Under the pieces are notes generated by a model. That model ran no database searches. It had not been told where the DNA came from and was given only the letters and a program-made list of their open reading frames with translations. Of a stretch of 64,000 bases of DNA, positions 1,677 through 64,000 are shown piece by piece. Origin of the DNA: Amanita rubescens (lineage: Eukaryota > Basidiomycota > Agaricomycetes > Agaricales > Amanitaceae). The position numbers and the translations under genes were made by a program. Positions within the stretch are counted from its first letter, which is position 1. Each line of letters starts with the position of its first letter. Location of the stretch: assembly GCA_015039365.1 (NCBI GenBank), contig WION01000131.1:62001-126000 (forward strand), in the 5' to 3' direction.

Positions 1677-4241
1677 TCAGATCTCTTGTTCGTAAGCATC
1701 TTCCCAGGCGTAATTCATTGGCTCATCCTTTTCGTCATCACTCTCGCCCTCCCCATCTTCATCATCGTACGCTCGTTTCCTAGCATCTGAAGCGGCACCT
1801 GTGGATACGGCAGAGACAACGCCAACGGTACCCTCCTCGACGATTAACTGCGGTTCCGTGTATCCTTTTCCATCTTCCATCTGTATTAGCTCCGTATCGT
1901 CCTTCTCGTCCATTCCAGTCGTCATCGTTTCAGCGAGTGATGGTAAACCACCGCTGTCGACAAAAAGCTCTTTCAAAGCATTATAGTTGATCCTCCGGCT
2001 GTATTTGAGATTCTTTTTGACAAGATTCTGGACAGATTCAGTGACGGTAGCTCCAGAGGGTGTTGTCGCGTCTCGAGGTTTGGCTGTCTTGCGACGCTGA
2101 AGATGATGATAAACAAGTGTAAACAGTTTGAAAAAAAAAGTTGCAGCTAACGGGATACGAACCTTCCTACTCTTGGCTGCTGTTGTTGCATCTTGCTGCT
2201 CTCCCTTGGCTAAAATTATCCGTTTAGCAAAAACTCCGTACTCAGGACCGGTACTCGGTTCGCTCCAGATTCTGAAGCGAACCTCGTTCCCAATTCCCGG
2301 TTTGAATAGATACCCACCAGCTAGAGCTTCCAAGTAATCCTTATTCAGCTCAACCCACACTCGCTCTTTGATCTTGGCTTCTTCTTCGTCCAGCAAGAAC
2401 TTGTCCAACTCCTCATCATTCAAACCTAACGTCCAATCTTCTTCTTCTTCTTCCTCTACCTGGCTCACGGCAGAAACGGGCCCGTTGAAAGCCCCATTGA
2501 TGAGGCTATATTGTTGCTCACGCCATGCTGATGCTCGTTTTCTTCTCTCCTCTTCTCGTTCTATCCTTCGCTGCCGTTCCTGCTCTTCTTGTTCTTCTAG
2601 AACGGCGCGCACCTGCGCTGCCCTCCCTTCGCCGAGATACTTGCTGACTTCTTCGACAATCACGTTTTCCATCGTCGTATCAACATAGTCCGAGGTTTGT
2701 TGGGGACCGTCAGGTTCACCGAGTTCGATATTAATGTCAAGAGAGGCATGGAGGCTTTCCGACCGTAAGCTTTCTGTGTACTGTTGGGGTGCTGTTCGAT
2801 ATTGCACAGATTGCTGCAATAGAGCGGGATCGATGTGACTGTTAACCTCTTCGTCTGGATCGGGTGCAAAGAGTGGCATATGGTTCACACCCGCAGGCAT
2901 TGACTCCATCGTCCCCGCCAAGATCCCTTGATGAAGTAGAGCTGGATCAAATAAGGGTTGTGGTGGTGGATGTGGCGTGCTTTCAACTTCTTCCGTTTCC
3001 TCGTCGCTATCTATTCGTTTCCTCTTCCTCTTCTTCTTTGGAGTAGTTTTATCCTTCATCTTCATCCTCCTACCGCCCTCTCCTCCGTTCTCCGTGGATT
3101 CTTGTTGAGATTCCTCAGCCGCCCTCTTCTCTGCTTCCTCTTTCTCCCGACCTTTGGTAAATGCCGGTGGATCCATTTCCTCGTCCAACCAAACTCGCCG
3201 GAAATCGGCAAGAGTTAGCTGACCGCTTGGAGTCTTTCTAAATTCATCCAAGCGCTTTTTCAGGGTCGTATCTGCGATCTTCACGACCTGAACGATCTCC
3301 TCTACGCTTCGTCTGAAATTATTCATCCGAGCAGCCAAAAGGAGAGCTGCGCCGCATATTCCGGCAGGTCTCCTTCCTCTGGACATCCAGTCCCTGTCGA
3401 AGCGGGAGACTAATCGTACTGCATCCGTGGCCACTCTGTTGGTTTCCTCCCCGAATTCAAGCAGTGCGGCGAAGCGGGAGATGTAATGGGAAGGGTCCAC
3501 CAGTGGGAGGCGGAGGTTTAGAGTCTGAACCAACTGGAGATAAGTGTGTCCCAGTTCGAATACGTTGACCTGCCGAGAATTAGTTAATATCACTTTAAGC
3601 GATATATATATGCGCACCTGCAGAAGATCCGAAAAGTCTATTAGCATGTAATTCCATGTCTCCTTCTGTCTGCATGCAACATAAAGGCACACAGCCACAA
3701 CATTGAGACTCTTTCGACCTTTTGTAAATTTATGCTCGACGGCTAGCGTGTAAAGGCGGGTAGCGGCTAAACATATTTGTTCTGATAGGCGAAGGATATT
3801 GGCGATGCTTTGAATTTTCTTATTGGCTAAAGCAAAGAATATAAGAAGAAAAAAACAGAGTATATGCGGCAAATGTTGACCGTACCGTTCGCAATAGTTT
3901 GTTCCCTCGATTCGTGATTCGCTCGATGACCAAGAGGACCAGTCAGATGCGCGCGTGCTAAAAATGTATCGAGTGAGTATGCGGTTCGCGTAGAATTGAA
4001 TGACATACTGGATCCTTGTGCTACAAACGATCCCTGGACAACGGCTGCGCCTGCCGATGTCTCATCGAACCCAAGCTCGCTAACGATTGTGTTTTCTTCG
4101 ACAACTGTCCCACATGACACGCAAAATCCGTTACCCGCCGCATGGTCGTATTCAATCACGGTCCCTCCGCAATCTGAGCATATAGACTGAATTGGTCAGT
4201 CGAAACCACACAATTTCGTTCCAAGGAGATATTCTCACCAT
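1677..4241 (-). CDS. BRF1: Transcription factor IIIB subunit BRF1
   Basis: TFIIB-related subunit of TFIIIB, which recruits RNA polymerase III to tRNA, 5S and other small RNA genes. The N-terminus has a zinc ribbon with CxxC pairs (CSDC and CVSC) in the first 26 residues, followed by GTVVEENTIVSEL. Two cyclin folds follow (LYTLAVEHKFTKGRKS, then MLIDFSDLLQ joined to VNVFELG), then DTTLKKRLDEF, and later an acidic and Lys-rich tail with the Brf1 TBP-binding region around VWVELNKDYLEAL and the RINYNALKELF block. I place the start codon at 4239-4241, cut straight off by a 52-nt intron (4187-4238). Other introns are 3827-3885, 3570-3617 (in frame, 48 nt) and 2097-2162 (in frame, 66 nt). The stop is at 1677-1679. 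Family assignment is firm; the one-codon first exon is inference from the splice signals and the match of the following residues. Confidence 0.93.
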
Positions 4242-4794: not shown

Positions 4795-5985
4795 ATGGAA
4801 ATGATACCATTGGAGATCATCGATCTTTTCTTTAGATTTCTACACCTCGACCGTGACAAACGGACATTGGGCACATGCAGTCTAGTCTGCGCAGCCTGGC
4901 TCCCTTTTGCTCGTTATCGCCTTTTATCGGACGTAACGGTGAAGTTTTCAACCCACGAACGTGACGACGTCATCGAGGACCTCCTTTCATCACCTCTTTG
5001 CACCATCGCTCCCTATATTTGCAATCTACACATCCAAGGTTCATGCCCAGCCCTCTCACCACTATCGATACGAAGTTCCACAGCTGCCATCCGCAGTTTA
5101 CCGAACATCCGAAATGTAACACTTCAGGATATAACATGGCCGTTGATGCCCGTGGAGTTGAAGACCGCTATCGCGTCATTCGATCTCACCTCACTCAGCT
5201 TCTCGTTTGTATTTTTTGCAACGTCACAAGAGCTATATCAGTTGCTCTCCGCATTTCCCACACTCACTGTCTTATCCCTTGGTTATGGCGTCCGGTGGTT
5301 GGGACCCAGTCCGGACACGCATCCATCAAAGCCGCTAAAAAGCGTGCGCAGGCTGTCGCTCGACACGTCAAAAGCCCCGTTGATGTCGTTCCTGCTTCAA
5401 CTCACTGCCCCTGCGTCAATTGATGCCCTCGAGATGCGATTCGTTTCAATAACGCAAAAAATGATGGTGGACGAATTCCTAAACCGCACAACGCTGAAAC
5501 ACTTGACACTCGACTTTGGTAAAATTGGACAAGGTAGGCAGACCGTTCGAAGGAAGCGCCACTTATGTTGATTTCGCAACTCAGGTCCGGGAACGATTCA
5601 TTTTGATCTCGGCTCACACCCCGAACTCCGCTCCCTGACATTAGAAGGTCTAGTCCTGTCGCGCAGTTATTATACAAGTCCGGAAGCGAATTGGGGAGCG
5701 TGCATGACTTTGCTTTCTAGCATCAAATCCCGGAGCATGGAGTCGTTGACAATATGCTTGTCGAAACTCCACTCCGTAGCGGACGTTGACTGGGCTGCGT
5801 TTGACAACGTGTTGGAAGGAGAAGTGTTCAAGAACTTGAAGACGGTGTCTTTGAAGTGCTATATATTAACTGATCCAGATTCCCAGCACTTTCCCCATTC
5901 CGACGCAATTCGTGCTCATCTTCCCAAGGCACACGCTCGTGATCTCCTGGACTTTGAATATATACCAAGCAATCTGTATTTGTAA
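4795..5985 (+). CDS. F-box protein
   Basis: Likely substrate receptor of an SCF-type ubiquitin ligase. The first 45 residues form an F-box: a hydrophobic start (MEMIPLEIIDLFFRFL), then TCSLVCAAWLPFARYRLL, the usual basidiomycete pattern. The rest is a leucine-rich, LRR-like region without clear catalytic residues. One intron, 5534-5584 (51 nt, GT-AG), joins GKIGQ to a second exon that runs PGTIHFDLGSHPELRSLTLEGL and ends ...PSNLYL at 5985. Without the intron the frame stops at 5571. F-box proteins of this kind are strongly expanded in Agaricomycetes, and the substrate cannot be predicted. Confidence 0.85.
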
Positions 5986-36239: not shown

Positions 36240-37376
36240 CTAGATAGTATATAGCCCCACCGAATTACATTGCGTCAGTAACAAGACGACATGGAGAGCT
36301 TCCAGCCGAGGAAACCTTTCTGCGAGCTGAGCAAACAAGAAAGCTGGCGCTTCGGGGTCAAAGCTGATTAAGCTCAACCTCCGAATAGCACCTGACGTCA
36401 AGGTCAGCGCATCCAGTGTTCCAGTGGCACACCGAGGGAATAACGGCACAGACGCCGTACGCACTCCACGTCCGTGCGCGACCGTGCGAATGATGGGCGG
36501 ACCAGCGTGGACCGCGTTGAACAGAGTCAACGACGGTAACGAGTCTTGCTTGAGCTCAAAATCTGTCGATAGAGGTTCGATATCCATTTCCGGGTTGATA
36601 ATGTTGAACGGGTTGAGGGACGACTTGGCGTTTTGGAAGCCTCGGAGGGTTAATTCCACTATCCCCGGCTGGGATTCGAGGAACCTGGCGAGTGGAGCTT
36701 TGCAATGCAGAGATGTGGTAAAGTGGCGCAGGGAGAAGGTACACCCATCTAGTATCCAAGTGGGAGATTGGTGAGTGGGGAAGTCGAGGTTGAGAAAGTT
36801 GAGTGACGTCAGAGACTTGAGAACGGTGTGTAGCAGACGGTATAGGTTATGAGTGGGTTGGAAAGGCTGCCACTCGACGTCCAGGGAACGAACTAGAGGT
36901 GGGAGAGAAGGATTCCGGGTGAGTGTACGAAGACAGCGTATCCATTGGTGAGTCGGCAGCGACCTCAACGTGATGTCCTGGTATAGAAGCCGGATGGCAA
37001 TATTGTAGAATGCATTGCTTGCTTGGGTGAGCAATGCGAGATCCCCGCGACAGACACGAGAGAAAATCAAGCTGAGCAACTCGGTTGGAAGCCTGGAGCG
37101 AGTGGAGGGGCTGATGGAGGCGTCAGGGTAATCACAACACAAATCCACTAGACCCGATATTCCGTGTCGCGCTCCTCTCCTGATAGTCACCTGCACAATC
37201 TCCTGTCCATTCGGCGTCATGACGAATGATGAACGAATAAATGAGTCGCCAGGGGCGGCGTCGTAGTCGGCGGTCGTGGCAGGTGGGAGCCGAACGAAAT
37301 AAGCTTCATTCAATACGTCGCAGTGTCCGATTACTGGATGGGCCGTTATCAACCATTTTACCTCGACAGTTCTCAA
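36240..37376 (-). CDS. F-box/LRR-like protein
   Basis: A single-exon reading of 378 codons. A Leu/Pro F-box begins at about residue 92 (RLPTELLSLIFSRVCRGDLA, LLTQASNAFYNIAIRLLYQD). It is followed by Leu-rich repeats such as SLTSLNFLNLDFPTHQSP, GIVELTLRGF and DALTLTSGAIRRLSLI. The 90 residues ahead of the F-box (LITAHPVIGHCDVLNEAYF and similar) are unusual for the class and might belong to an upstream exon or an overlong start. A substrate-receptor role in an SCF ligase is expected. The target is unknown. Confidence 0.78.
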   Translation of the reverse strand: MRTVEVKWLITAHPVIGHCDVLNEAYFVRLPPATTADYDAAPGDSFIRSSFVMTPNGQEIVQVTIRRGARHGISGLVDLCCDYPDASISPSTRSRLPTELLSLIFSRVCRGDLALLTQASNAFYNIAIRLLYQDITLRSLPTHQWIRCLRTLTRNPSLPPLVRSLDVEWQPFQPTHNLYRLLHTVLKSLTSLNFLNLDFPTHQSPTWILDGCTFSLRHFTTSLHCKAPLARFLESQPGIVELTLRGFQNAKSSLNPFNIINPEMDIEPLSTDFELKQDSLPSLTLFNAVHAGPPIIRTVAHGRGVRTASVPLFPRCATGTLDALTLTSGAIRRLSLISFDPEAPAFLFAQLAERFPRLEALHVVLLLTQCNSVGLYTI

Positions 37377-37726
37377 GTTCTCATCTCGAAACTATTTTAC
37401 ATCAAATTTGGTAAATTTAACAATTTGGTTGCATGTTCGACGGATATGACATTCCCTACACTACAAATCCGAGTCTAATCGGAACATTACATTACAATAA
37501 ACTCGAAGTTCCCTTCAATTTGGATCGCTCCTTTCCATCATATCGATACCATGTTGTTCAGGACTACTTGAACCCTCTTTCCCATATTTGGATTTTTCCT
37601 AGCAGATAGTGTCATCCCGCTTGAAATACTGGAAATCAAAGAGCTTATTTACCTCTTCAAAATCGGAAGGTGATTCTGGAATCACCGGCTCTCTACCCAA
37701 AAGTTTAAGTCTAATGAATGGTCGAA
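37377..37726. other. Intergenic, no gene
   Basis: Short region between two minus-strand genes: the F-box start on one side, the permease 3' end on the other. Confidence 0.4.
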
Positions 37727-53510: not shown

Positions 53511-54246
53511 GGTAGCAACAGTTTGAGCGCTCAAAGCGGCGCTACAGGCATGCCACTCGGAGGGCAAGGCGTATTTATGCAGAGTTGGCAGTTTCCATAC
53601 GACGAAACTTGGGAACTACCTCCGCTCATGGTCCGTTGGAACACTCGGGGCGTCACGGTTTCCTTGTTGTGATAGCAAAGATATCTCATGCAAAGCTTCG
53701 GGGCCTCTTTTGGCTTGAAAATGCCTCGGAGTCACTCTGCCAACAGTCATCGGAGGTAGAGGAGATCGCAATGATGGATCCCAGGTCGCGGGGGAAATAG
53801 TTGCGCTACCATCGGCGTCACAACCACTTCAGTAACAGAATGAGCAAAAATACACCATGGCGCGCCTATAAGTAGTCACTTGTTCAAATACAGTAACGTG
53901 CGAATTTGTTCTCCTTGTCCGCTCCGAAGATCTGACCAGTGAAACGCACCGCTAAACTCTATTGGCGTATACTCCGATAACATCTGAATTAGATAAAGAC
54001 ATGGCAGCGTTGAGCGTGAGTGAAACTTTGTCTTACATGCTATGACTGCTCAGTGAATGATCAATCAACAGTTCAAGCTGATGACAAGCCCGACCCCGAC
54101 AGTCCATATCTGTTGCCTACCCCGGCTTCCAAACCGCCATTGGCTTCTCGGCTGGCCGATCACTATGAATGAAGAGTGATGGTACCAGTGCGAGATGATC
54201 GATGACATGCTCACGGTGTAAATAAGCACAAACTTTGACCACCTCG
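53511..54246. promoter_or_regulatory. Divergent intergenic region, with a possible tiny exon pair
   Basis: Between the MLKL-like gene and GPI13. A segment at about 54074-54171 reads QADDKPDPDSPYLLPTPASK in a protein-like way and ends HYE before a stop. An ATG with a GTGAGT donor lies at 54001-54017, but the phases do not fit, so no gene is called. Confidence 0.35.
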
Positions 54247-57200
54247 ATGCTGCAGCTCACATGGGTCTTCGCAGTGCACATCATTGGCATTTATCTTTTC
54301 ACTCGCGGTTTTCTCTTATCTCGTCTTTCTCTGTCAGATTACTCCTCTTGTAATCTTTCCAACTGCACTCTCACTCCTACTCACAACCGCGTAGTCTTTC
54401 TCATCATTGATTCACTGCGTTTCGACTTTGTTTCTCCAGACCCACCACTTCCTGCTTCTCCAAACCACCACAATGTACTCAACCTCCCTAGACAACTCAC
54501 TGAAAAACAGCCCACACGCTCATTTATCTTCAATGCGTACGCGGATCCACCAACCACAACACTACAGCGCATCAAGGGCCTGACGACTGGCTCCCTCCCA
54601 ACTTTCGTAGACATGGGAAACAACTTTGGAGGCTCTTCTATAATGGAAGACTCTATATTGAAGCAAATGAGGCTTGCAGGAAAAACAGTGAGGTTGACTT
54701 TTAATATTCCTTCGACAAAACATTCTAACAGAATTCCTGAGGCAAGTCGGCGGCTTTCATGGGCGACGATACGTGGATGTCTGTTTTTCCAGATGCGTTC
54801 CATCCCAACATGACATTCCCATACGACTCTTTCAACGTAGAAGACCTTCACACCGTCGACCAAGGTGTTATAACCCACCTCTTCCCGCTACTGGAAGACC
54901 CATCCAAACCCTTCGACATTCTGATAGGTCACTTTCTGGGCGTAGACCATGTCGGTCATAGAGTCGGTCCAGACCATCCCAGTATGAAAGCTAAACTGCG
55001 GCAAATGAACGATGTTCTACAACGTGTCGTGGACAAACTGGACGACGACACTTTATTGGTCGTTCTCGGTGACCATGGCATGGATCGCTCCGGAGATCAC
55101 GGCGGAGATGGCGAACTAGAGACTTCAGCAGCGCTTTGGATATACAGCAAAGGTCCAGCGTTAACTTCAGCTACTTCCACACCTCCTTCTGGGTTGCTTC
55201 AGTACAAAACATTCCCAGGGAGTGCGACGCGTCATCGTTCCATCCAACAGATAGACATATTACCAACGATTTCGCTTCTTCTCGGACTGCCTATTCCATT
55301 CAACAACCTAGGTTCTGTCATACCCGAAATTTTTTGGCGTACCGGTAACGGCGGCGACTTGAAGCGCGCCTTGGAACTCAACGTTGACCAAGTCAGGAGA
55401 TACCTAGACACATACCGCTCCAGCCCGTCTGGCGGAGAACTCGATGATTCCTGGGATCATATCCAAAACGCGTATGATGCGATTCAATCAGTTTCGCATC
55501 TCAAAGACGCACAGTTGGTCGCTCTTAATAACTTTAACCGCGTTGCTCTCGGAGTCTGTCGAGCTATGTGGGCGCAATTCAATCCAATGCTTATGGGCTT
55601 TGGACTAGCAGTTCTATCCATCGGAATACTCTCAGCTTGGTTTGTATATGCGGCATTATCAAAAGCTCGAAACGACTGGCAAAACTGGGTCAAGGTGCAT
55701 ATGCCTCGCTGTATTCAGTTCGCTAGCGCCGGCGCCGTCATAGGCTTAGTCGCTCACTACTCTGTTTCCACCTATACCCCTGGAATCCGAGTATTCGATT
55801 GGGTTCTATGCTTTGCCTCCCTCGGTTCTTGTCTCGCGTTCATCGTCACTTGTCCCTTCCCACCAGTGACACTCAAGTCTTTCCCCAGTCCTTCTCGCCC
55901 TTCACACAGCAGCCTTCTTCTCCAACTCATTCACATTCTGGGAAGATAGAATAGTGCCTTTCATGCTTGCCACCGCCGTCCTTGCCAATTTCGCCCACCG
56001 TGGTATCACCGCTCCCACCTCCCATCTTCGTCGGCGGATTCTGGGATTCTCAGGCTCTCTTCTTGGTATGCGTACGGTTAATCTCCATCAGTACAGTATG
56101 CAGAGAAGAACAACAACCGTACTGCCATATGACATTCTTCGCCTCGTCTTCCTTACCTTCACCACCCACTCTTGTTCTCATCCTCGCTCTCCCAATCGGC
56201 AGGCATCGTCATACCATTGGTAATCCAACGCATACTGCGAATAACAAAGTCAGATGTAGGCGTTGCCGGCACAATTTTGCAAGTCATCGTCCGTCCTTCG
56301 TTGATAGCCGGTTCTCTCTTCTGGTACGCCGAATGGGCTGATTCGACGCACGTGCTGGGTGCGGGGAACTGATAAAGATTTCTTGGCTGCGGTTTTGAGG
56401 ATGGATTAGATCCTTATTGGCCATATTCGCAATGGGATGGCCGATCTTTGCTGGTCTTTTACTTTGGTGGCGTATCCCGTTGTGTCTCCAGATTGAAGTG
56501 AACGAGGGATCCTGGATCTAAACCGAAAACGCCAGGTTACGGTTCTTGGGTTTGCCAACGCGTTCGGATCGCCGTATTTGTTATTTTGGACGATTTTTCT
56601 TTGTGTGGTGTATGTGAGCGTGCAGTTGAGCGCGCAGGTCGTGTTGGGGCTCGCGACGGTGGCTTTGCTGGCGTATTTGGAAATAGTGGATAGCGTGAGG
56701 GACGCGAGGGTTATAGACGTTGCGTTTGCGACCTGGCGCACCTTCCTCTGTCTTGAATACCCCTTCCACTTCCACTATCCCCTAGCTCGCCAGAAACAAG
56801 CGCAGCAATCCGAACAGCAACTCAACTCCGATTCTCCGATATTGTACCCATCTCACTTCTCGGTCTTCTTACCTTTTACGCAACTGGCCACCAAGCAACC
56901 GTGTCGAGTATACAATGGAAAGCGGCGTTCTTGCTGACCGAAACGGTCAAGTATCCTTGGTCGCCGTTGACCGTCGCCAGCAACTTTTTGGGACCTGTGG
57001 CTGTGTTTGCGGGTTTGGGCGTTCCTTTGGTTGCGGTGTGGAATAGAGCTCCAGGTTATGTCCCAGGACGCCTCTCAGAATCAAAACCGGAAAGAGGAGG
57101 CTGCTGCGTACGATGCGCAGGTGAAAGCGGACAGTACGCTCGCTGGGCTAGGGCGTGATGATTTACTTTGGAATGCTCTTGCTTGGTGCGGCTATGAGTG

Positions 57201-57373
57201 CTGCGATACTGAGGCGGCATCTCATGGTGTGGAAAGTGTTTGCGCCGAGGTTTATGGCGGCTGCGGTGCACCTTTTGGTCGTGGATGTGGGTGTGCTGGT
57301 GGGTGTTGGTGTCGGCGTTGCGAGAATCGCAAAGAAGGTTGGGGAGGTGTTCAAGGGGATGGTGAGGACATGA
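54247..57373 (+). pseudogene. GPI13: GPI ethanolamine phosphate transferase 3 (GPI13/PIG-O), frame broken in 3' half
   Basis: ER membrane enzyme that adds ethanolamine phosphate to the third mannose of the GPI anchor, the point of protein attachment. The catalytic half is clear: a signal anchor (LTWVFAVHIIGIYLFTRGF), VVFLIIDSLRFDF, PTTTLQRIKGLTTGSLPTF (nucleophile Thr), FGGSSIMED; then an intron to FMGDDTWMSVFPDAFHPN, HFLGVDHVGHRVGPDHPSM and VLGDHGMDRSGDHGG (metal ligands). From about 55.9 kb the multi-helix part goes on recognisably (FTFWEDRIVPFMLA, CREEQQPYCHMTFFASS, LFWYAEWADSTHVLG, LLLWWRIPLCLQIEVN, GHQATVSSIQWKAAFLL, MLLLGAAMSAAILRRHLMVW), but each piece lies in another frame and most gaps are too short for an intron. 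Either the gene is decayed or this stretch of the assembly holds indels. The gene is essential in yeast, so an intact copy should exist. Confidence 0.8.
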
Positions 57374-57448: not shown

Positions 57449-59502
57449 TTAATTTCTGCGATTAATAACTATTTGCTTATCGCCATCCGTTTCCAATGGC
57501 CAGAAAGTTGCACCGATGCCTGGGACCTCACAAGGGTCAATCAGATTCCCATCAGCGAGAACTGTTGCAACCCCGCGGGACGTCTTCATTTGTATTTCGT
57601 ATTTCTGTCCAATCTTGAAGCTAAAGACCTTTGAGACCTTTGCTATATGCGAGGATACGGCATCTCTAGTCCTGAGCGCGACAGGAGCGTGGTCGATGAT
57701 GCTATGGTTCCTATACACTCTCGCTTCGATAATGATCCCGTCCTTTTGCAACCGGTTTTCGATGAAGATACCCTCGGCGATAACGTCATTTTCGTCGGCC
57801 GTTCTGGTGAGTTTCCCTTTCCCGTCTCTTTTGCCCTGTACCCAATCACCATGATACGTCGTACCATCGCAATACGCGGCGATTCCAACGCCGTGCGGCA
57901 ATTTCGCATGAACGCTGCCAATGTAGCGCCAACCTTCATCTCGATTCATCAATACGCCCCATCCTTCTTGGCCCAAGATGTTCCACCTCAATTCCCGAAT
58001 ATACCCTCTACTTCCCGAAATCCCAAATGTGACAAATGCAGCTTGCATTGTTTTTGCTGTGGTTTCGACTGCGGTCCGTAAGGTCTGACTATCATCGAGC
58101 TTGAGAAAGTCATCGATTATGAGGGGGTCCATAAACAAGGAGTAGTAGACCGTTGGAATGGTGGATCCATCATCCCTCGTCATTGGATTACCCCCTTGCC
58201 ACTTCCTGACGGCGCTAGCGTAGAGACGGTACATATTGAAGAGAGGGATGGTCCCCACCACATGAGGGATAAGAACCAAGGCGATAGTCGCACCATCGGG
58301 TCTGTTCATTTCTCCGCGCAAGTGCGTTACATTCGTCAACTTGAATTGGTGGTCGTCCGCCGCACGTTTTTTCTCCAGCAAATCCTCGAATGTAGCCCAG
58401 TCGATCTTGTATCGTTCCTCCTCCGTGTCAAAACGAGGTTGATTACATCTTATGAAATCGTCAGCGGTCTTGTTGTCGGAATTACTGCGGTAAGCATCTA
58501 AGAATCGACGTAATGCGGAACGCGCGTTGATGACAATCGAATCTACTTGGTTTTTCCGCTTTCGACATTCCGCTAATAGGGTCGGGAAAAGAGACTTGTA
58601 GTTATTCTCCAGCTGATCCAGAATGTACCTGCGATCGATCTGTAGATTGACGATACGATTGTAAAAGTCTATAATAGCCTTCAAATCGGCATCTTCCAGC
58701 TCCCGAAAGTTGGTGACGACATTGACCTTGTTGAAGCGGCTGAGGGGAGTCAGGATGATGTCGCAGGGTACACCCTGAGAACCGATTAATTTGGGAGATC
58801 TTCTGATCAGGTCGATCAAGTCGGTTGGTTTAGTGGGCAGCGGATCCCTGAAATTTGAAATCGGACACATAATTGACGTTGACGTTATAATCGTCGATCC
58901 TTGATTTCTGTTCGGAGGAAAGTTCAGCTTCCACTTTGGTACTGAAGGCTTTGGCCATATCCTTGAACGCTTCGAGGTTAAACGTTCCTTTTTTTTTCGT
59001 CTGCGAGTCCTCGGCGCTAATCCTCTCTGTGATATTCCCGACCGCATTTCCACCATACGTGATGCCAGTGACGACATGAGTGGCACCGATGTATTCAATT
59101 TCATCTTCGTCAAGCCTAACGGCATCATGGAGACCCTGCGTATCGAGGTATCTGTGTTCCGTCCGAATGCGTGCTACTGCAGCTACGGTCGTCGAATGGA
59201 TAGAATCTTTGCTTCGGTCAAGATACGAGCCGTACGCGCCAATGGGAATGGCCCCGGACAAAATGGACACCGAAATCCGACGGGGACACCTGCAGTGTAT
59301 TTGCTCTATCCTCGAGGCTTCTGACTTCCTTGTATTCGAAGTCTGTACTTCTTTTAGGAATTGTCTTGATTGTTGCGGTGGCTTTTTCAGTGTCAAACAA
59401 GAATTCGTTCTGAAAGGTAGATGCAGTTGCATCGTAGAGTTGGCCTAACTGAACAGGCCTTGCCAATGCTTTAATTTCGAGTTGTTGTTTGCTCTGATCC
59501 AT
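57449..59502 (-). CDS. SNTX-like/MORN protein, copy 1, with two frame breaks
   Basis: Starts MDQSKQQLEIKALARPVQLG at 59502. The first 210 residues match the N-terminal domain of the stonustoxin (SNTX) family, which belongs to the MACPF/cholesterol-dependent-cytolysin superfold: LGQLYDATAS, SILSGAIPIGAYGSYLDR and the signature GATHVVTGITYGGNAVG. A helical middle (ADLKAIIDFYNRIVNLQ) and an alpha/beta part with ATIALVLIPHVVG follow. The C-terminal third has MORN-type repeats (WRYIGSVHAKLPHGVGIA, YHGDWVQGKRDGKGKL) and a beta-rich tail ending VINRRN. The frame changes near 59.27 kb (at a run of C) and near 58.85 kb (at a run of G), with no usable intron. It is thus a young pseudogene or carries sequence errors. 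No signal peptide is present, so an intracellular protein is expected. Paralogue of 60707-62719. Confidence 0.7.
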
Positions 59503-59804
59503 GGCGGGCTGGAATCCAAAAGTTCATTAGATACTACTCACAACAACTTGAGATACATACAGTAAATCGTCGTTGTGCGAGTAACCGAACGTGAGTGCTA
59601 CGGTACGTGCAGGTGGCAGCATGTTTACTAAGTACTTGATGCGAGCTAGTTCATGACCTCATGTTGTCAGCATTGTGATAATGAGATTCGTTTCTCTAAT
59701 TGGTGATGACGTTCGAGTTGAAGGTGTTCTGTTTGGTTTGGATGATCGGAAATAAAACTAGTACGAAAATAATAACTCGAAATAACTAATAATCTCCTGT
59801 TCGT
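59503..59804. other. Intergenic, no gene
   Basis: About 300 bases between SNTX copy 1 and the HNH gene, both on the minus strand. No coding signal. Confidence 0.4.
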
Positions 59805-60557
59805 TTATCCTCTTCTTACTCCAAATTTTTGCTTCGAAGCATATTTCCTCCATCGCTGTATATCCTCCCGCTGAAGCAGAAGTTCTATGGTATAATAATT
59901 TTGAGCTAGGTCTTCACATCCAGCGACATGATGTACAGTACTATGGCAAGGCCTGACGATTTTAAGAAAGTGTGTTAATTTTATAGGCGACTCAACGCAC
60001 CTGCACAACCACGCAACTGAATTCAACATGCTCTCTGGATGCCACCTCCTTTTGAGCACCTTCTCATGCGTAGACCGCGGTATTAGATGATGATACGTCA
60101 AAGGAACTTCTCTCTCGCAAATCTCGCACTCGGTTGTTCTAGTGGACGACCAAACCGGCGGAGGTGCACATGCCTCCTGGACGAAATCCCGCAACACGCG
60201 TCGGAGGAATGATGTTGATTCCTCTGTGTCTGACGTGACAGCGTACACTATCATCGTATCGAAAAAGGATGTGGGGATAGAATCGAGTGGTAAAACCTCG
60301 GGATCTGGTACGGCGTCACGAGATTCATACGTCGCGGTCTGGAGCGAGGAAGGCAGAGAAGGCCATACCTCGGACGAGAGATACGACGAGAAATCGTCAA
60401 GATCTGATTCTTGCCCTGCGGAATCCAGATCTCGGGAGTTATCTACGACGTCCAGGCGGGCGAGTAGAGTTCGGGCAAGGCAATGTTTGAATACATGGTA
60501 TTGCGATGATTCTTGAGAACTTTGTTCATAGGGCGACATCCGCCGTTGGTGCTTCAC
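59805..60557 (-). CDS. HNH nuclease-like protein
   Basis: A small protein of about 230 residues with a C-terminal HNH (beta-beta-alpha metal) domain: a CEICEREVPLTYHHLIPRST block with the first CxxC and His-His pair, then HPESMLNSVAWLCR joined by an intron (GTGCGT donor) to PCHSTVHHVAGCEDL. The last part runs YTIELLLQREDIQRWRKYAS. The two CxxC pairs bind a structural zinc, and the HH...N...H set would form the catalytic site. The N-terminal 140 residues are acidic and unrecognised. Proteins like this are common single genes in fungi with no known role; a nuclease activity is inferred from the motif only. It sits between the two SNTX-like genes, all on the same strand. The second Met at 60539 is an alternative start. 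Confidence 0.78.
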   Translation of the reverse strand: MKHQRRMSPYEQSSQESSQYHVFKHCLARTLLARLDVVDNSRDLDSAGQESDLDDFSSYLSSEVWPSLPSSLQTATYESRDAVPDPEVLPLDSIPTSFFDTMIVYAVTSDTEESTSFLRRVLRDFVQEACAPPPVWSSTRTTECEICEREVPLTYHHLIPRSTHEKVLKRRWHPESMLNSVAWLCRCVESPIKLTHFLKIVRPCHSTVHHVAGCEDLAQNYYTIELLLQREDIQRWRKYASKQKFGVRRG

Positions 60558-60706
60558 ACCAGGTCACTGTGGTATGCAAGTAGTTGGGGCAGCTCTGTAT
60601 TTAGAAGTACTCTCGGGACCGCTCCCAAGCCTAATTCTAATTCACACACCCACCGCAACAAATCAACTGCAGTACATTCCGGCCATACACGGGAAATACA
60701 AAATAT

Positions 60707-62719
60707 TCAATAAATGGTATTGATTTTAATGGATTTTTGGCCATCTAGGGGCCACGTAGTCGAAGCCTTGCTAGACGCGTCAACGAAAGGCCCATTCGCA
60801 ATGTCCGATTCTGGCATGAATGTATTGTCAACCGAGCACAGGATGACATCAAAGCGCTGGCCAATCTTCAATCCAAAAACATCTGCGATTTTGGCAACAT
60901 GATCTGAGACTGTGTCACGGCCGCCAAGCGCGATAGGCACAAACTTGATAGGTATGTCGTTCCGGAAAAGGGTAGCGTTGACCACAACGCCATCTTCCCT
61001 GACACGATCATCGATATAAACGTTTTCTTCGCCAGTGCCCGTCCTGCTGATCAGCCTTCCCAGACCCTCCCGGCGTCCCTTGTACCAACTCCCCGCATAC
61101 CGCGTTTCATCTGCGTAAGTTATGACGCCTGAACCGTGCTTCATTCCATCCCGAACGTTGCCAATGTACCTCCATTTGTCTTCTTTGTTGATTAAAATGC
61201 CCCACCCGTCTCTGTTCATCGAGTTCCATTCAAGTTCCCCGAGCTTATTCAGCGCGACCCCAAATGTGAGAAACCCGGTTTGTTTGCTATCGCGAATGCT
61301 CGCGATAGCTGTCATCAGAGTCCCGTCTGCATCGTCGAGAAGCCTCAACGTATCGTCAATCTGAGGGTCGGCGTACAGCGAACGATAGATAGTTATCTCG
61401 CCCCTGTCGCCTTCGCCACGTTGACTATCTTCAACTCGACGCCATTCGCGGATATCGTCTGCCAATACTCGGTAGATGTTCAAAAGGTTGACGGTATGAA
61501 CAGATTCCGGGATAACGACTAATGCAATAGTAGCATCGTCCGTTCTATTCATCAACTTCTTCAACTTTGTGACGTCGATTAATTCGAATCCGGAATTATC
61601 AGCGGCTTTCTTTCCTTGCACGAGATCCTCGAATGTGCTTTGGTCGACTTCATACACCCGCTGCTCATCAGTGTACTTCTCTTTCGCAGCTGTTAAGAAG
61701 TCGACATTGGGCGCCGAACCCGGTTTTGAACTGAGGTAAGCCTGGAGGCACTTGCGAAGTTCCCGACGCGCATCTCGCAGGCTTTGGCTTACCCTTTTGG
61801 ACTTCTCGCGACATGCAGCGGTGAAAGAGGGGAAGTAGGTCATATAATGCTGGTCCATCTGGCTAAAAAGATGGATCCTGTTCTGGTCCAAGCTGATGTA
61901 CTTGTCGTAAAAGCTCAGGATCTCGCTGAGCTGCGCTTCGTCCATTTGTTGCACAAAGGAGACCGAACTGAATTTGTCCCTGAACCTCCGAAGTGAAGTC
62001 AAGTGGACCTTCAGAGGCACGCCTTCCCCAGCTGCAGGAGTGGCCTGCACCACCATACTGAGCATATCAGCCGCGTTGGTGGGAAGTGTCGATTCCAACT
62101 GAATATCCGCAAGAAGTCGAACCTCGCAGTCGTATAACTCCAGTTTCTTCTTTTTTTCCATCTGAAACTCGCCGCTAACTTCAAAGAATTTGCACATCCC
62201 TTTCAGGACATCGATTGAAAGTTCTCCGCACGAATCCGTTTTTGTCTTCTTTTGGGTAAAAGTACCGACTATATTGCTACCGTATTCAATGGCGGTGACA
62301 ACATGGGTAGCGCCGTTCTCTTGAACTTGCTCTCCAGTCAACCGGACAAATTTCTTGTTGTCAGGTATGTCTAATCTTTCCGTTTTGGTATGGATTCGAG
62401 CTGTTACAGCGATTGTATGAGAACTGCTGCTGTCATCTGCGCGGTCCAAATATGAACCATAACCATCCACGGCAAGGGCACCAGATAGGATCGAAACGGA
62501 TAGCGAGGCAGAAATATTGAGTGAATGAGCCCTGGATTCGAGACTCTTGATTTCTCGGTAGTCGTATGAGATACCAGAGGCGGGCTCTGGTTTGGATAAG
62601 ACTAGCTGAGTCGGATCGAAGAGGTTTTCATTTATAAAGGTCGAAGTGGTTGCATCGTAAAGCTGGCCGAGATATACGGGTTTGCCGAGCGGTTGAATTT
62701 GGATCTCGCGGACTCCCAT
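60707..62719 (-). CDS. SNTX-like/MORN protein, copy 2, intact
   Basis: One uninterrupted frame of about 670 codons. The start is set at Met 62719 (MGVREIQIQPLGKPVYLGQL) to match copy 1; a further Met at 62773 is open. Domains in order: SNTX-like N-terminal domain, about residues 5-220 (SVSILSGALAVDGYGSYLDR, GATHVVTAIEYGSNIVG); a helical linker with SLRRFRDKFSSVSFVQQMDE and ILSFYDKYISLDQNRI, reminiscent of the SNTX focal-adhesion-like part; an alpha/beta segment (ATIALVVIPESVHTVNLLNI) that may be the thioredoxin-like domain; MORN-type repeats at about 505-560 (KWRYIGNVRDGMKHGSGVIT, YAGSWYKGRREGLGRL); and a beta-rich tail. MORN repeats bind lipids or membranes in other proteins. SNTX of stonefish is a secreted pore former, whereas this protein lacks a signal peptide and the PRYSPRY domain. 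Family is clear; activity is inference. Confidence 0.85.
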   Translation of the reverse strand: MGVREIQIQPLGKPVYLGQLYDATTSTFINENLFDPTQLVLSKPEPASGISYDYREIKSLESRAHSLNISASLSVSILSGALAVDGYGSYLDRADDSSSSHTIAVTARIHTKTERLDIPDNKKFVRLTGEQVQENGATHVVTAIEYGSNIVGTFTQKKTKTDSCGELSIDVLKGMCKFFEVSGEFQMEKKKKLELYDCEVRLLADIQLESTLPTNAADMLSMVVQATPAAGEGVPLKVHLTSLRRFRDKFSSVSFVQQMDEAQLSEILSFYDKYISLDQNRIHLFSQMDQHYMTYFPSFTAACREKSKRVSQSLRDARRELRKCLQAYLSSKPGSAPNVDFLTAAKEKYTDEQRVYEVDQSTFEDLVQGKKAADNSGFELIDVTKLKKLMNRTDDATIALVVIPESVHTVNLLNIYRVLADDIREWRRVEDSQRGEGDRGEITIYRSLYADPQIDDTLRLLDDADGTLMTAIASIRDSKQTGFLTFGVALNKLGELEWNSMNRDGWGILINKEDKWRYIGNVRDGMKHGSGVITYADETRYAGSWYKGRREGLGRLISRTGTGEENVYIDDRVREDGVVVNATLFRNDIPIKFVPIALGGRDTVSDHVAKIADVFGLKIGQRFDVILCSVDNTFMPESDIANGPFVDASSKASTTWPLDGQKSIKINTIY

Positions 62720-63579
62720 AACTGCAGAACTAGAGGTGAGCAATGGTAGGGTGCATAAACCGACAAAACTCACTTATCGACGCTGCACCTCAAAAACGTA
62801 TCAAGACCGCGGTGAGCGTGGCTTCCTCGAGGCTCGAAGTGAGCCCCGGGCTGGCAGCCTCATCCATGTTAGGTTCCAGCTTGGTTCAGTTCATTCCTGC
62901 GAAGGACTTGAGAAGGACTTCTCAATCGATAACGAAGCGCTGTACCTTTTCCATATAAAAGAATTTCTCCGCGTGGGGCAGCGAAGATCCCTTCCTTTTT
63001 TTGAAGAGTTTAGACTCAGAGAAGTCTGAGTTTCGGGGCTTGCCGAGCTTCGGCCCTGCTCCTCTTACAACGATGTTACTCGCTCAGTTTTTGTCTAACA
63101 ACAGGTCTGACGACATGCATTACTCGAGCATTTGGATATCGAGACGGATCTCAACTTGTCAGTATGGAGGTTGACAGACCTGCAGTGGTACAGAACTTCT
63201 TGAAATATGGCAATCTGGAACGTCTGTCATTGGGACTCAGTAATATCCGAGCCAGACTCGAATACTGATCGTAGACATTAACACGGAGCATACTGAATCT
63301 CATAAATGCAAGCCCAAACTCGTTCTGACTCACTCATGGTTACAATTTATCTAACAAGGTATGTTGTTCGCGCTTCAATCATAATTGCTATGTTGAAGCA
63401 GTTATTTAGCGACGAACAAGTGCATTCTAGTCCGAAGCCTGCATCGGTACTTTCACTGTCAGACATAGAGTAATCGTGCTTCTTCCTCAAAACTACTCGA
63501 TCGTTGATAACGCTATTACTTCAGGTACGCATCTGATGATGATGAACAATTCGCGCAAAGCGATACGAGCGATACGATG
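62720..63579. promoter_or_regulatory. Divergent intergenic region, SNTX copy 2 / GTPase
   Basis: About 860 bases. It contains the promoter of the SNTX copy 2 gene and that of the plus-strand GTPase. A short plus-strand frame opens at 63162 (MEVDRPAVVQNFLKYGN) and could be a first exon of the GTPase gene, but I cannot join it with confidence. Confidence 0.35.
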
Positions 63580-64000
63580 GACGAAGTAAATAAGTCCTTG
63601 TTGAAGTAAGTCATCGCTCACTTGAGCCGCATCAAGAGTCACATATCTTCATAGCTCTGTCGACGACCTGGCTAGAGGGATTATTAAAACCGATAAAAAC
63701 CAGTTGAAGGAATACACCATTATACTCGTCGGTAAGAATGCCCTCACCATTCGGTTCGTCCGTTCATCCCTCGCACTGCAGGTGAAACAGGTACTGGTAA
63801 GACTAGTCTGTTGTCCTTGTTTGCAAACATTTTGGCTGGTCGAATTGCTGGTGATTATGAATTTGCACATGACAAGGACAATGAAGCCGGAGGTGGCGAG
63901 AAACATAGTCAGACCAACTCGGCGAAGCTATACGAATTCTGGAGTAATAATGGCGTTAAAGTACGCATCCTCGATACACCAGGGCTTGCAGACACCCGTG
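63580..64000 (+). CDS. P-loop GTPase (AIG1/septin-like G domain), 5' part
   Basis: The start is taken at MDEVNKSLLN. Introns at 63606-63654 and 63732-63781 lead through SVDDLARGIIKTDKNQLKEY and TIILVG to ETGTGKTSLLSLFANILAGR (G1, GxxGxGKT/S), then EFAHDKDNEAGGGEKHSQTN and VRILDTPGLADTR (G3, DTPG). The TIILVGETGTGKTSLL and DTPGLADT pattern is that of AIG1/TRAFAC-type GTPases, often membrane-associated. The window ends before G4, so subfamily and partner domains are unknown. It is transcribed divergently from SNTX copy 2. An upstream exon is possible, since the frame is open back to a possible acceptor near 63524. Confidence 0.75.

Follow-up and report, generated by a model that had tools for sequence, protein, structure and literature searches.

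Among the papers listed for it, the name stonustoxin is used mostly for venoms and fish. According to the available portion of PMC8704401, stonustoxin alpha and beta pair as a heterodimer and make pores via their MACPF domains, and one glycine (alpha 208, beta 209) is reported as necessary for the pre-pore. A salmon study, in its available portion, found sntx-beta-like genes near a quantitative trait locus for virus load and as the target of an expression quantitative trait locus, an association only (PMC7316828). Listings of open-licence papers for SNTX, for stonustoxin or for MACPF, combined with fungi or with GTPase, AIG1 or MORN, showed none on a module of SNTX-MORN proteins and a GTPase. 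Here, a locus from Amanita rubescens is described in which two genes for proteins with an SNTX-type N-terminus and a MORN tail (SNTX-MORN copies 1 and 2) enclose an HNH-like gene and adjoin a divergent AIG1-type GTPase gene. It lies in a 64-kilobase (kb) stretch of DNA (the window; G000 C37:62001-126000) from a 75.7-megabase assembly. This layout, first noticed in a sequence-only reading that proposed a pore-forming defence locus, was confirmed, and that first interpretation is partly supported as a whole. Tentatively, with a probability of roughly 0.45, we regard the locus as an old SNTX-GTPase module of eukaryotes that is here in split form, in which the pair and the divergent GTPase would act together by the mechanism and for the purpose proposed below.

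Stonustoxin-type N-termini and MORN tails

Copy 1 scores 44.6 bits for PF24674 (MACPF_SNTX; cut-off 27) and 37.7 bits for MORN (cut-off 22.5). The MACPF_SNTX domain spans residues ~1-250, a helical region ~250-360 and the MORN repeats ~497-585; residues ~370-490 and the C-terminus carry no domain assignment. Copy 2 is split across three frames in the window, and when the three pieces were searched singly, MORN passed in one (31.7 bits) and SNTX remained below cut-off in two (21.5 and 16.4 bits). On contig C124, which is 97% identical to the window across 7283 aligned bases at the SNTX-MORN locus and is taken as its second haplotype, copy 2 forms a single frame with 42 bits for PF24674 and 34.1 bits for MORN. 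Coding parts of each haplotype contain single-base length differences (copy 2 on C37, the GTPase gene on C124, where a frame change is present), which may be long-read assembly errors. The two copies are 39% identical to each other, and a protein record from A. rubescens (P0001, F5887DRAFT_1282888) is 99% identical to copy 1. Profile searches of the A. rubescens genome scored the best candidates only, and statements on uniqueness hold among those. PF24674 gave four matches, one of them below cut-off, solely at this locus on both haplotypes; MORN gave four at E 0.01, all within the SNTX-MORN genes, and no others.

Relatives of copy 1 were collected in a protein search that scored 8000 candidates, its maximum, and gave at least 19 matches: 17 SNTX-MORN proteins (eight from six named fungal species), a neoverrucotoxin from a fish and a fusion protein from Acaulospora. 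One of the 17, P0006, a short A. phalloides model, shows MORN only. A profile of 17 rows (alignment A1; window copy 1 and P0002-P0017), compared with solved structures, found stonustoxin alpha at E 5.2e-35 and beta at E 1.1e-32, and for this reason the SNTX match is judged to be far above chance. By the domain limits given in the available portion of PMC8704401, the match, which runs to residue 354 of stonustoxin beta, takes in the MACPF domain and much of the helical domain. On this profile evidence, the N-terminal domain of copies 1 and 2 is a stonustoxin-type MACPF. The SNTX-type N-termini that the sequence-only reading had seen in both genes are thus borne out, as are their MORN tails by the scores above. 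In the tree, copies 1 and 2 fall into two clades (each 100/100), both of which contain A. rubescens, A. phalloides and A. inopinata; the duplication therefore predates the split of these three species. In A. phalloides, two SNTX-MORN genes on contigs of equal size are tagged 008464 and 008466, with room for a single gene number in the middle, as in the order of the window.

The MACPF-like signature has the form TH-[FYVI]-x6-G-G. All 17 rows of A1 show TH[VI]x6G, followed by G in 12 and by S in five, copy 1 among the latter. Like stonustoxin and neoverrucotoxin alpha and beta (PDB 4wvm), the fungal proteins combine MACPF_SNTX with part of the helical region, are about 700 residues long and occur as two diverged paralogs. 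Unlike them, they end in a MORN tail instead of the fish PRYSPRY, have mostly replaced the pre-pore glycine and adjoin a GTPase gene. Profile searches with PF18078 and SPRY gave no match in the SNTX-MORN proteins. A thioredoxin-like domain in the middle of these proteins is not claimed; the segment comparison was empty, and it is a weak test, the animal segment being badly cut. None of the four proteins of the locus (both SNTX-MORN proteins, the HNH-like protein and the GTPase) has a strongly hydrophobic N-terminus on the Kyte-Doolittle scale, the only one applied, in agreement with the earlier claim that signal peptides are lacking; inside copy 2, the value rises to 1.86 over one stretch of 19 residues.

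GTPases adjoining and fused to SNTX proteins

Completed with downstream contig bases, the window GTPase comprises 529 residues and scores 29.8 bits for AIG1 (PF04548; cut-off 27), so that the divergent GTPase of the first description stands. It resembles AIG1/GIMAP-type GTPases in this match, just over the cut-off, in its P-loop GETGTGKT and in DTPG; among 22 relatives, G1 and G3 are mostly invariant. It differs from them in a long, Cys/His-rich, coiled-coil-like C-terminus, and the 22 relatives have an invariant F-T-N (TN) where, on our reading of the motif, G4 would be expected. An alignment of 22 chosen stand-alone GTPases (A3), led by A. inopinata AX17_004054 and set up without the window GTPase, was compared with solved structures; midasin was found at E 6.5e-10, with no single stretch significant, septins reached E 6.7e-5 at best, and no GIMAP was matched. 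PADLOC was run on copy 1, the intact allele of copy 2, GTPase P0075 from A. inopinata and the fused protein P0022, leaving out the window GTPase. The two SNTX-MORN proteins had no match at E 0.01, and P0075 and P0022 matched LeoBC (E 2.6e-9 and 1.9e-8) and, weakly, mad8, matches that are tentatively read as shared likeness of the GTPase domain. Relatives of the GTPase are numerous in the assembly: the two haplotypes together have 64 matches in ~33 clusters, of which C124 carries six and C37 four, counting those linked to the SNTX-MORN genes. Small clusters of AIG1-type GTPases were observed on C37, C124, C104, C20, C8 and C332; elsewhere, GTPase locus tags form runs in A. phalloides (000442-000445) and in A. 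muscaria (several within 005240-005252).

Among the closest parallels to the arrangement in Amanita is a group of fused SNTX-GTPase-DUF8206 proteins of 886-1684 residues from Glomeromycotina, Mortierellomycotina and the ascomycete Neocosmospora, whose N-terminal half resembles the SNTX-MORN proteins and whose C-terminal half resembles the neighbouring GTPase family. A search in which the SNTX portion of the Acaulospora fusion served as query scored 7998 candidates and gave 56 matches. PF24674 was present in 51, and 43 of these also matched a G-domain or DUF8206 profile (DUF8206 in 34), a share that is no estimate; of the eight without such a profile, P0020 shows a P-loop motif at residue 499. 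Fusions were found in 11 fungal genera (Acaulospora, Scutellospora, Rhizophagus, Dentiscutata, Glomus, Gigaspora, Ambispora, Racocetra, Mortierella, Linnemannia and Neocosmospora), and a further member of the 43, P0072, carries animal-type domains. In one crustacean and one fish protein, AIG1 is joined to stonustoxin helical and thioredoxin domains (PF18078, PF21109), with no PF24674 listed. From 16 chosen fused proteins, alignment A2 was prepared. The SNTX-MORN alignment A1 matched its columns 50-494 (E 6e-31), and the stand-alone GTPase alignment A3 matched columns 644-1165, the Cys/His region included (E 2.4e-35); in the control comparison of A1 with A3 (E 0.2), the two families did not align. 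Thus, each of two adjacent Amanita genes matches, by family, one half of a protein that is a single chain elsewhere. The match of A1 to A2 extends past the MACPF domain, yet segment 372-490 alone had no match to A2. Against solved immunity-related GTPases, A2 gave weak matches (Irgb10, E 3e-4 over ~30 residues), and septin-8 scored equally. The fused proteins differ from the Amanita locus in forming one chain rather than separate genes, in having no MORN among the domains listed and in keeping the pre-pore glycine, which is present in all 16.

Linkage outside A. rubescens was judged from equal contig sizes and locus tags. The GTPase protein search gave at least 187 matches, of which 120 were listed; what is said on presence or absence in a species holds among the matches listed. 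The closest GTPase among them, A. inopinata AX17_004054 (61% identity over 98%), appears from the equal size to share a contig of 8384 bases with the SNTX-MORN gene AX17_004056. Hydnomerulius (1362886 bases) and Peniophora sp. CBMAI 1063 (388737 bases) have one listed GTPase each on the SNTX-MORN contig, likewise by equal size. With the window counted, GTPase and SNTX-MORN genes appear to lie on one contig in four of the six named species with SNTX-MORN, so that co-occurrence of the neighbours was found in part by this indirect check. A quick tree search covered 108 rows: 107 of the matches listed, those of 440 to 799 residues, together with the window GTPase. It placed the window GTPase with AX17_004054 and four A. 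thiersii proteins (Shimodaira-Hasegawa-like approximate likelihood ratio test, 95), apart from six other A. rubescens rows.

Proposed mechanism and competing explanations

Since proteins of the two matching kinds are fused in distant fungi, the comparison suggests that the SNTX-MORN proteins and the GTPase work together inside the cell; the GTPase is accordingly the partner of the first proposal that is now more strongly supported. The two ancient paralogs each join a stonustoxin-type MACPF core to a MORN repeat tail replacing the fish PRYSPRY. In the mechanism we propose, the GTPase would sense, or be recruited to, a target membrane, and its nucleotide state would license the SNTX-MORN pair. 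The pair would assemble via its MACPF domains, probably as a heteromer like stonustoxin alpha and beta, and the MORN or C-terminal part would select the membrane, which the assembled pair would then open or on which it would scaffold. The complex, the pore and the membrane are inferred, pore formation by analogy with stonustoxin. The site of action would most likely be intracellular and the purpose cell-autonomous defence or a damage response, the locus thus having perhaps a defence role. A GTPase partner that is fused in many fungi and adjacent in Amanita offers a concrete hypothesis for an intracellular role of the SNTX fold, one that can be put to the test in fungi that grow in culture. Were the module to serve defence, it would constitute a fungal immune system of pore-former and GTPase, with a logic comparable to that of the animal GBP/GIMAP and perforin systems.

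Several observations weigh against a split module of this kind. GTPase adjacency alone is weak evidence, because the family is large and partly clustered. The share of fusions in the search cannot be taken at face value, because the query was itself a fusion and long proteins are favoured. Among the matches listed, the SNTX contig of A. phalloides has no GTPase and A. brunnescens has none at all, the part of the co-occurrence check that failed; A. muscaria and A. thiersii, conversely, have such GTPases but no SNTX-MORN protein. Four A. thiersii GTPases even fall in the clade of the window GTPase, and the linked GTPases of Hydnomerulius and Peniophora fall outside it. The pre-pore glycine position, mapped by eye via the alignment of A1 with stonustoxin, is occupied in the 17 rows by Ala in 13, Ser in three and Gly in one. 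Finally, identity between the haplotypes does not by itself single out the coding parts, because two non-coding stretches are equally high: 149 bases between the HNH-like gene and copy 1 (99.3%) and the 817-base stretch that follows the GTPase gene (L003:2321-3137; 99.6%, above other nearby non-coding parts).

Somewhat unlikely, in our judgement, is the alternative that the SNTX-MORN pair acts alone and the GTPase is a chance neighbour from a large, clustered family. The ~33 GTPase match clusters, several of which lie on C37 and C124 in addition to the linked one, would make such an encounter easy to come by, and species with GTPases but no SNTX-MORN protein among the matches listed point the same way. 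Chance neighbourhood is less readily squared with the fusion of both families in many fungi, or with the 8.4-kb contig of A. inopinata, which carries the closest GTPase among the matches listed, a member of the same tree clade.

A serious rival, though one we would not bet on, is a non-lytic protein that keeps the MACPF fold as a scaffold or signalling device under a GTPase switch and serves not defence but membrane traffic, hyphal fusion or development. It overlaps with the split-module reading, and the odds of the alternatives are not exclusive. The pre-pore glycine, replaced in 16 of the 17 rows, suits such a scaffold; the same glycine is retained in all 16 chosen fused relatives. Constraint also bears on this question. 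Between the haplotypes, identity is 98.3-99.6% in coding parts and 88-89% in the two long intergenic parts. Copy 1 has a ratio of non-synonymous to synonymous polymorphism (pN/pS) of 0.22, from eight synonymous and six non-synonymous changes; in copy 2, its three pieces give 0.12-0.20, from 12 and six. These values come from few changes in one individual. Purifying constraint on the SNTX-MORN pair, few as these changes are, is counted in favour of the split-module reading, and low pN/pS would also fit a scaffold. The runs of GTPase tags and the patchy SNTX-MORN matches, on the other hand, would suit a defence repertoire better than housekeeping. As a separate matter, a hypervariable incompatibility locus is not supported by these coding identities and pN/pS values from one individual.

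An outward-acting cytolysin, directed at nematodes, insects or competitors and released with no classical signal peptide, is improbable. Homology to SNTX would favour it, and leaderless proteins can be released; fungal aegerolysins are leaderless. The MORN tail and the GTPase partner would nonetheless point to the inside of the cell, as would the fused relatives, which hold the GTPase in the same chain. A rather doubtful but wider conjecture extends the split-module reading: SNTX-type MACPF proteins may have begun as GTPase-controlled intracellular immune effectors. Early-branching fungi and some animals would have them in one chain with AIG1-type GTPases, mushrooms would have divided them into a two-paralog SNTX-MORN pore-former and a separate GTPase, and the stonefish toxin would be a derived, exported offshoot that lost its GTPase.

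The HlpB-like gene between the copies

According to the available portion of PMC3765158, which reports on another group's work, Bacillus subtilis HlpB binds DNA, was not seen to cleave it and has a link to repair that depends on AddAB. The gene between the two copies, from which a 48-base intron was removed, encodes a protein that stays below the Pfam HNH cut-off (15.8 against 21.4 bits). It matches NCBIfam HlpB over residues 135-222 at E 2.1e-10 (40.9 bits, under the equivalog cut-off of 130). Compared with bacterial HlpB/YisB, an HNH-like DNA-repair protein, the fungal protein carries an N-terminal extension of ~130 residues. Among the candidates scored, it occurs as a single copy per haplotype. 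The gene is better read, from these matches, as a distant HlpB relative, a DNA-repair-type protein more than an effector, and is probably a passenger. The nuclease gene described earlier between the copies is therefore present and HlpB-like, and its role as an effector was rejected as a lead, in view of the HlpB likeness, the single copy and the DNA-repair role of B. subtilis HlpB in the available portion of PMC3765158. That all four genes form one defence unit with a nuclease effector is very unlikely: the gene order and the A. phalloides tags, with one gene number between them, would fit it, and the likeness to HlpB, which in the available portion of PMC3765158 serves DNA repair without cleavage, and the occurrence of PF01844 and PF14279 in none of the 56 fusion-search matches speak against it.

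Features of the locus and neighbouring genes

Features are numbered by position in the window unless C37, C124, L003 or L005 is named (Table 1). The GTPase exons and the intron of the HNH-like gene were picked by eye.

Table 1. Coordinates of the SNTX-MORN locus and the adjoining GTPase gene of A. rubescens.
Feature	Position	Strand	Remarks
SNTX-MORN copy 2	57449..59502	-	Two frame breaks, both in the N-terminal third; allele L005:687-2738 (-) is intact, with 683 residues
HlpB-like HNH gene	59805..60539	-	228 residues; intron 59953-60000
SNTX-MORN copy 1	60707..62719	-	Single open frame, 670 residues
Intergenic region of the divergent pair copy 1 / GTPase	62720..63576	.	89% haplotype identity; possible shared promoter region of the two genes
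AIG1-type GTPase, 5' part	63577..64000	+	Exons 63577-63605, 63655-63731 and 63782 onward; continues to L003:2320 beyond the window; start codon unsure

Contig C46 begins with a duplicate of the 3' part of the window GTPase gene (C46:5-975; 100% identity over residues 304-529), and because of this repeat it probably overlaps C37 in the assembly. On the other side, copy 2 adjoins a gene at 54235-57373 (+) with a type I phosphodiesterase domain in the frame 54759-55946, continued over several frames; to judge by this domain, it is probably a glycosylphosphatidylinositol (GPI) ethanolamine phosphate transferase. Farther away, a gene at 1680-4061 (-) with TFIIB repeats and a Brf1-like TBP-binding domain probably encodes the BRF1 subunit of TFIIIB, and 36243-37391 (-) gives a weak F-box-like match slightly under the cut-off.

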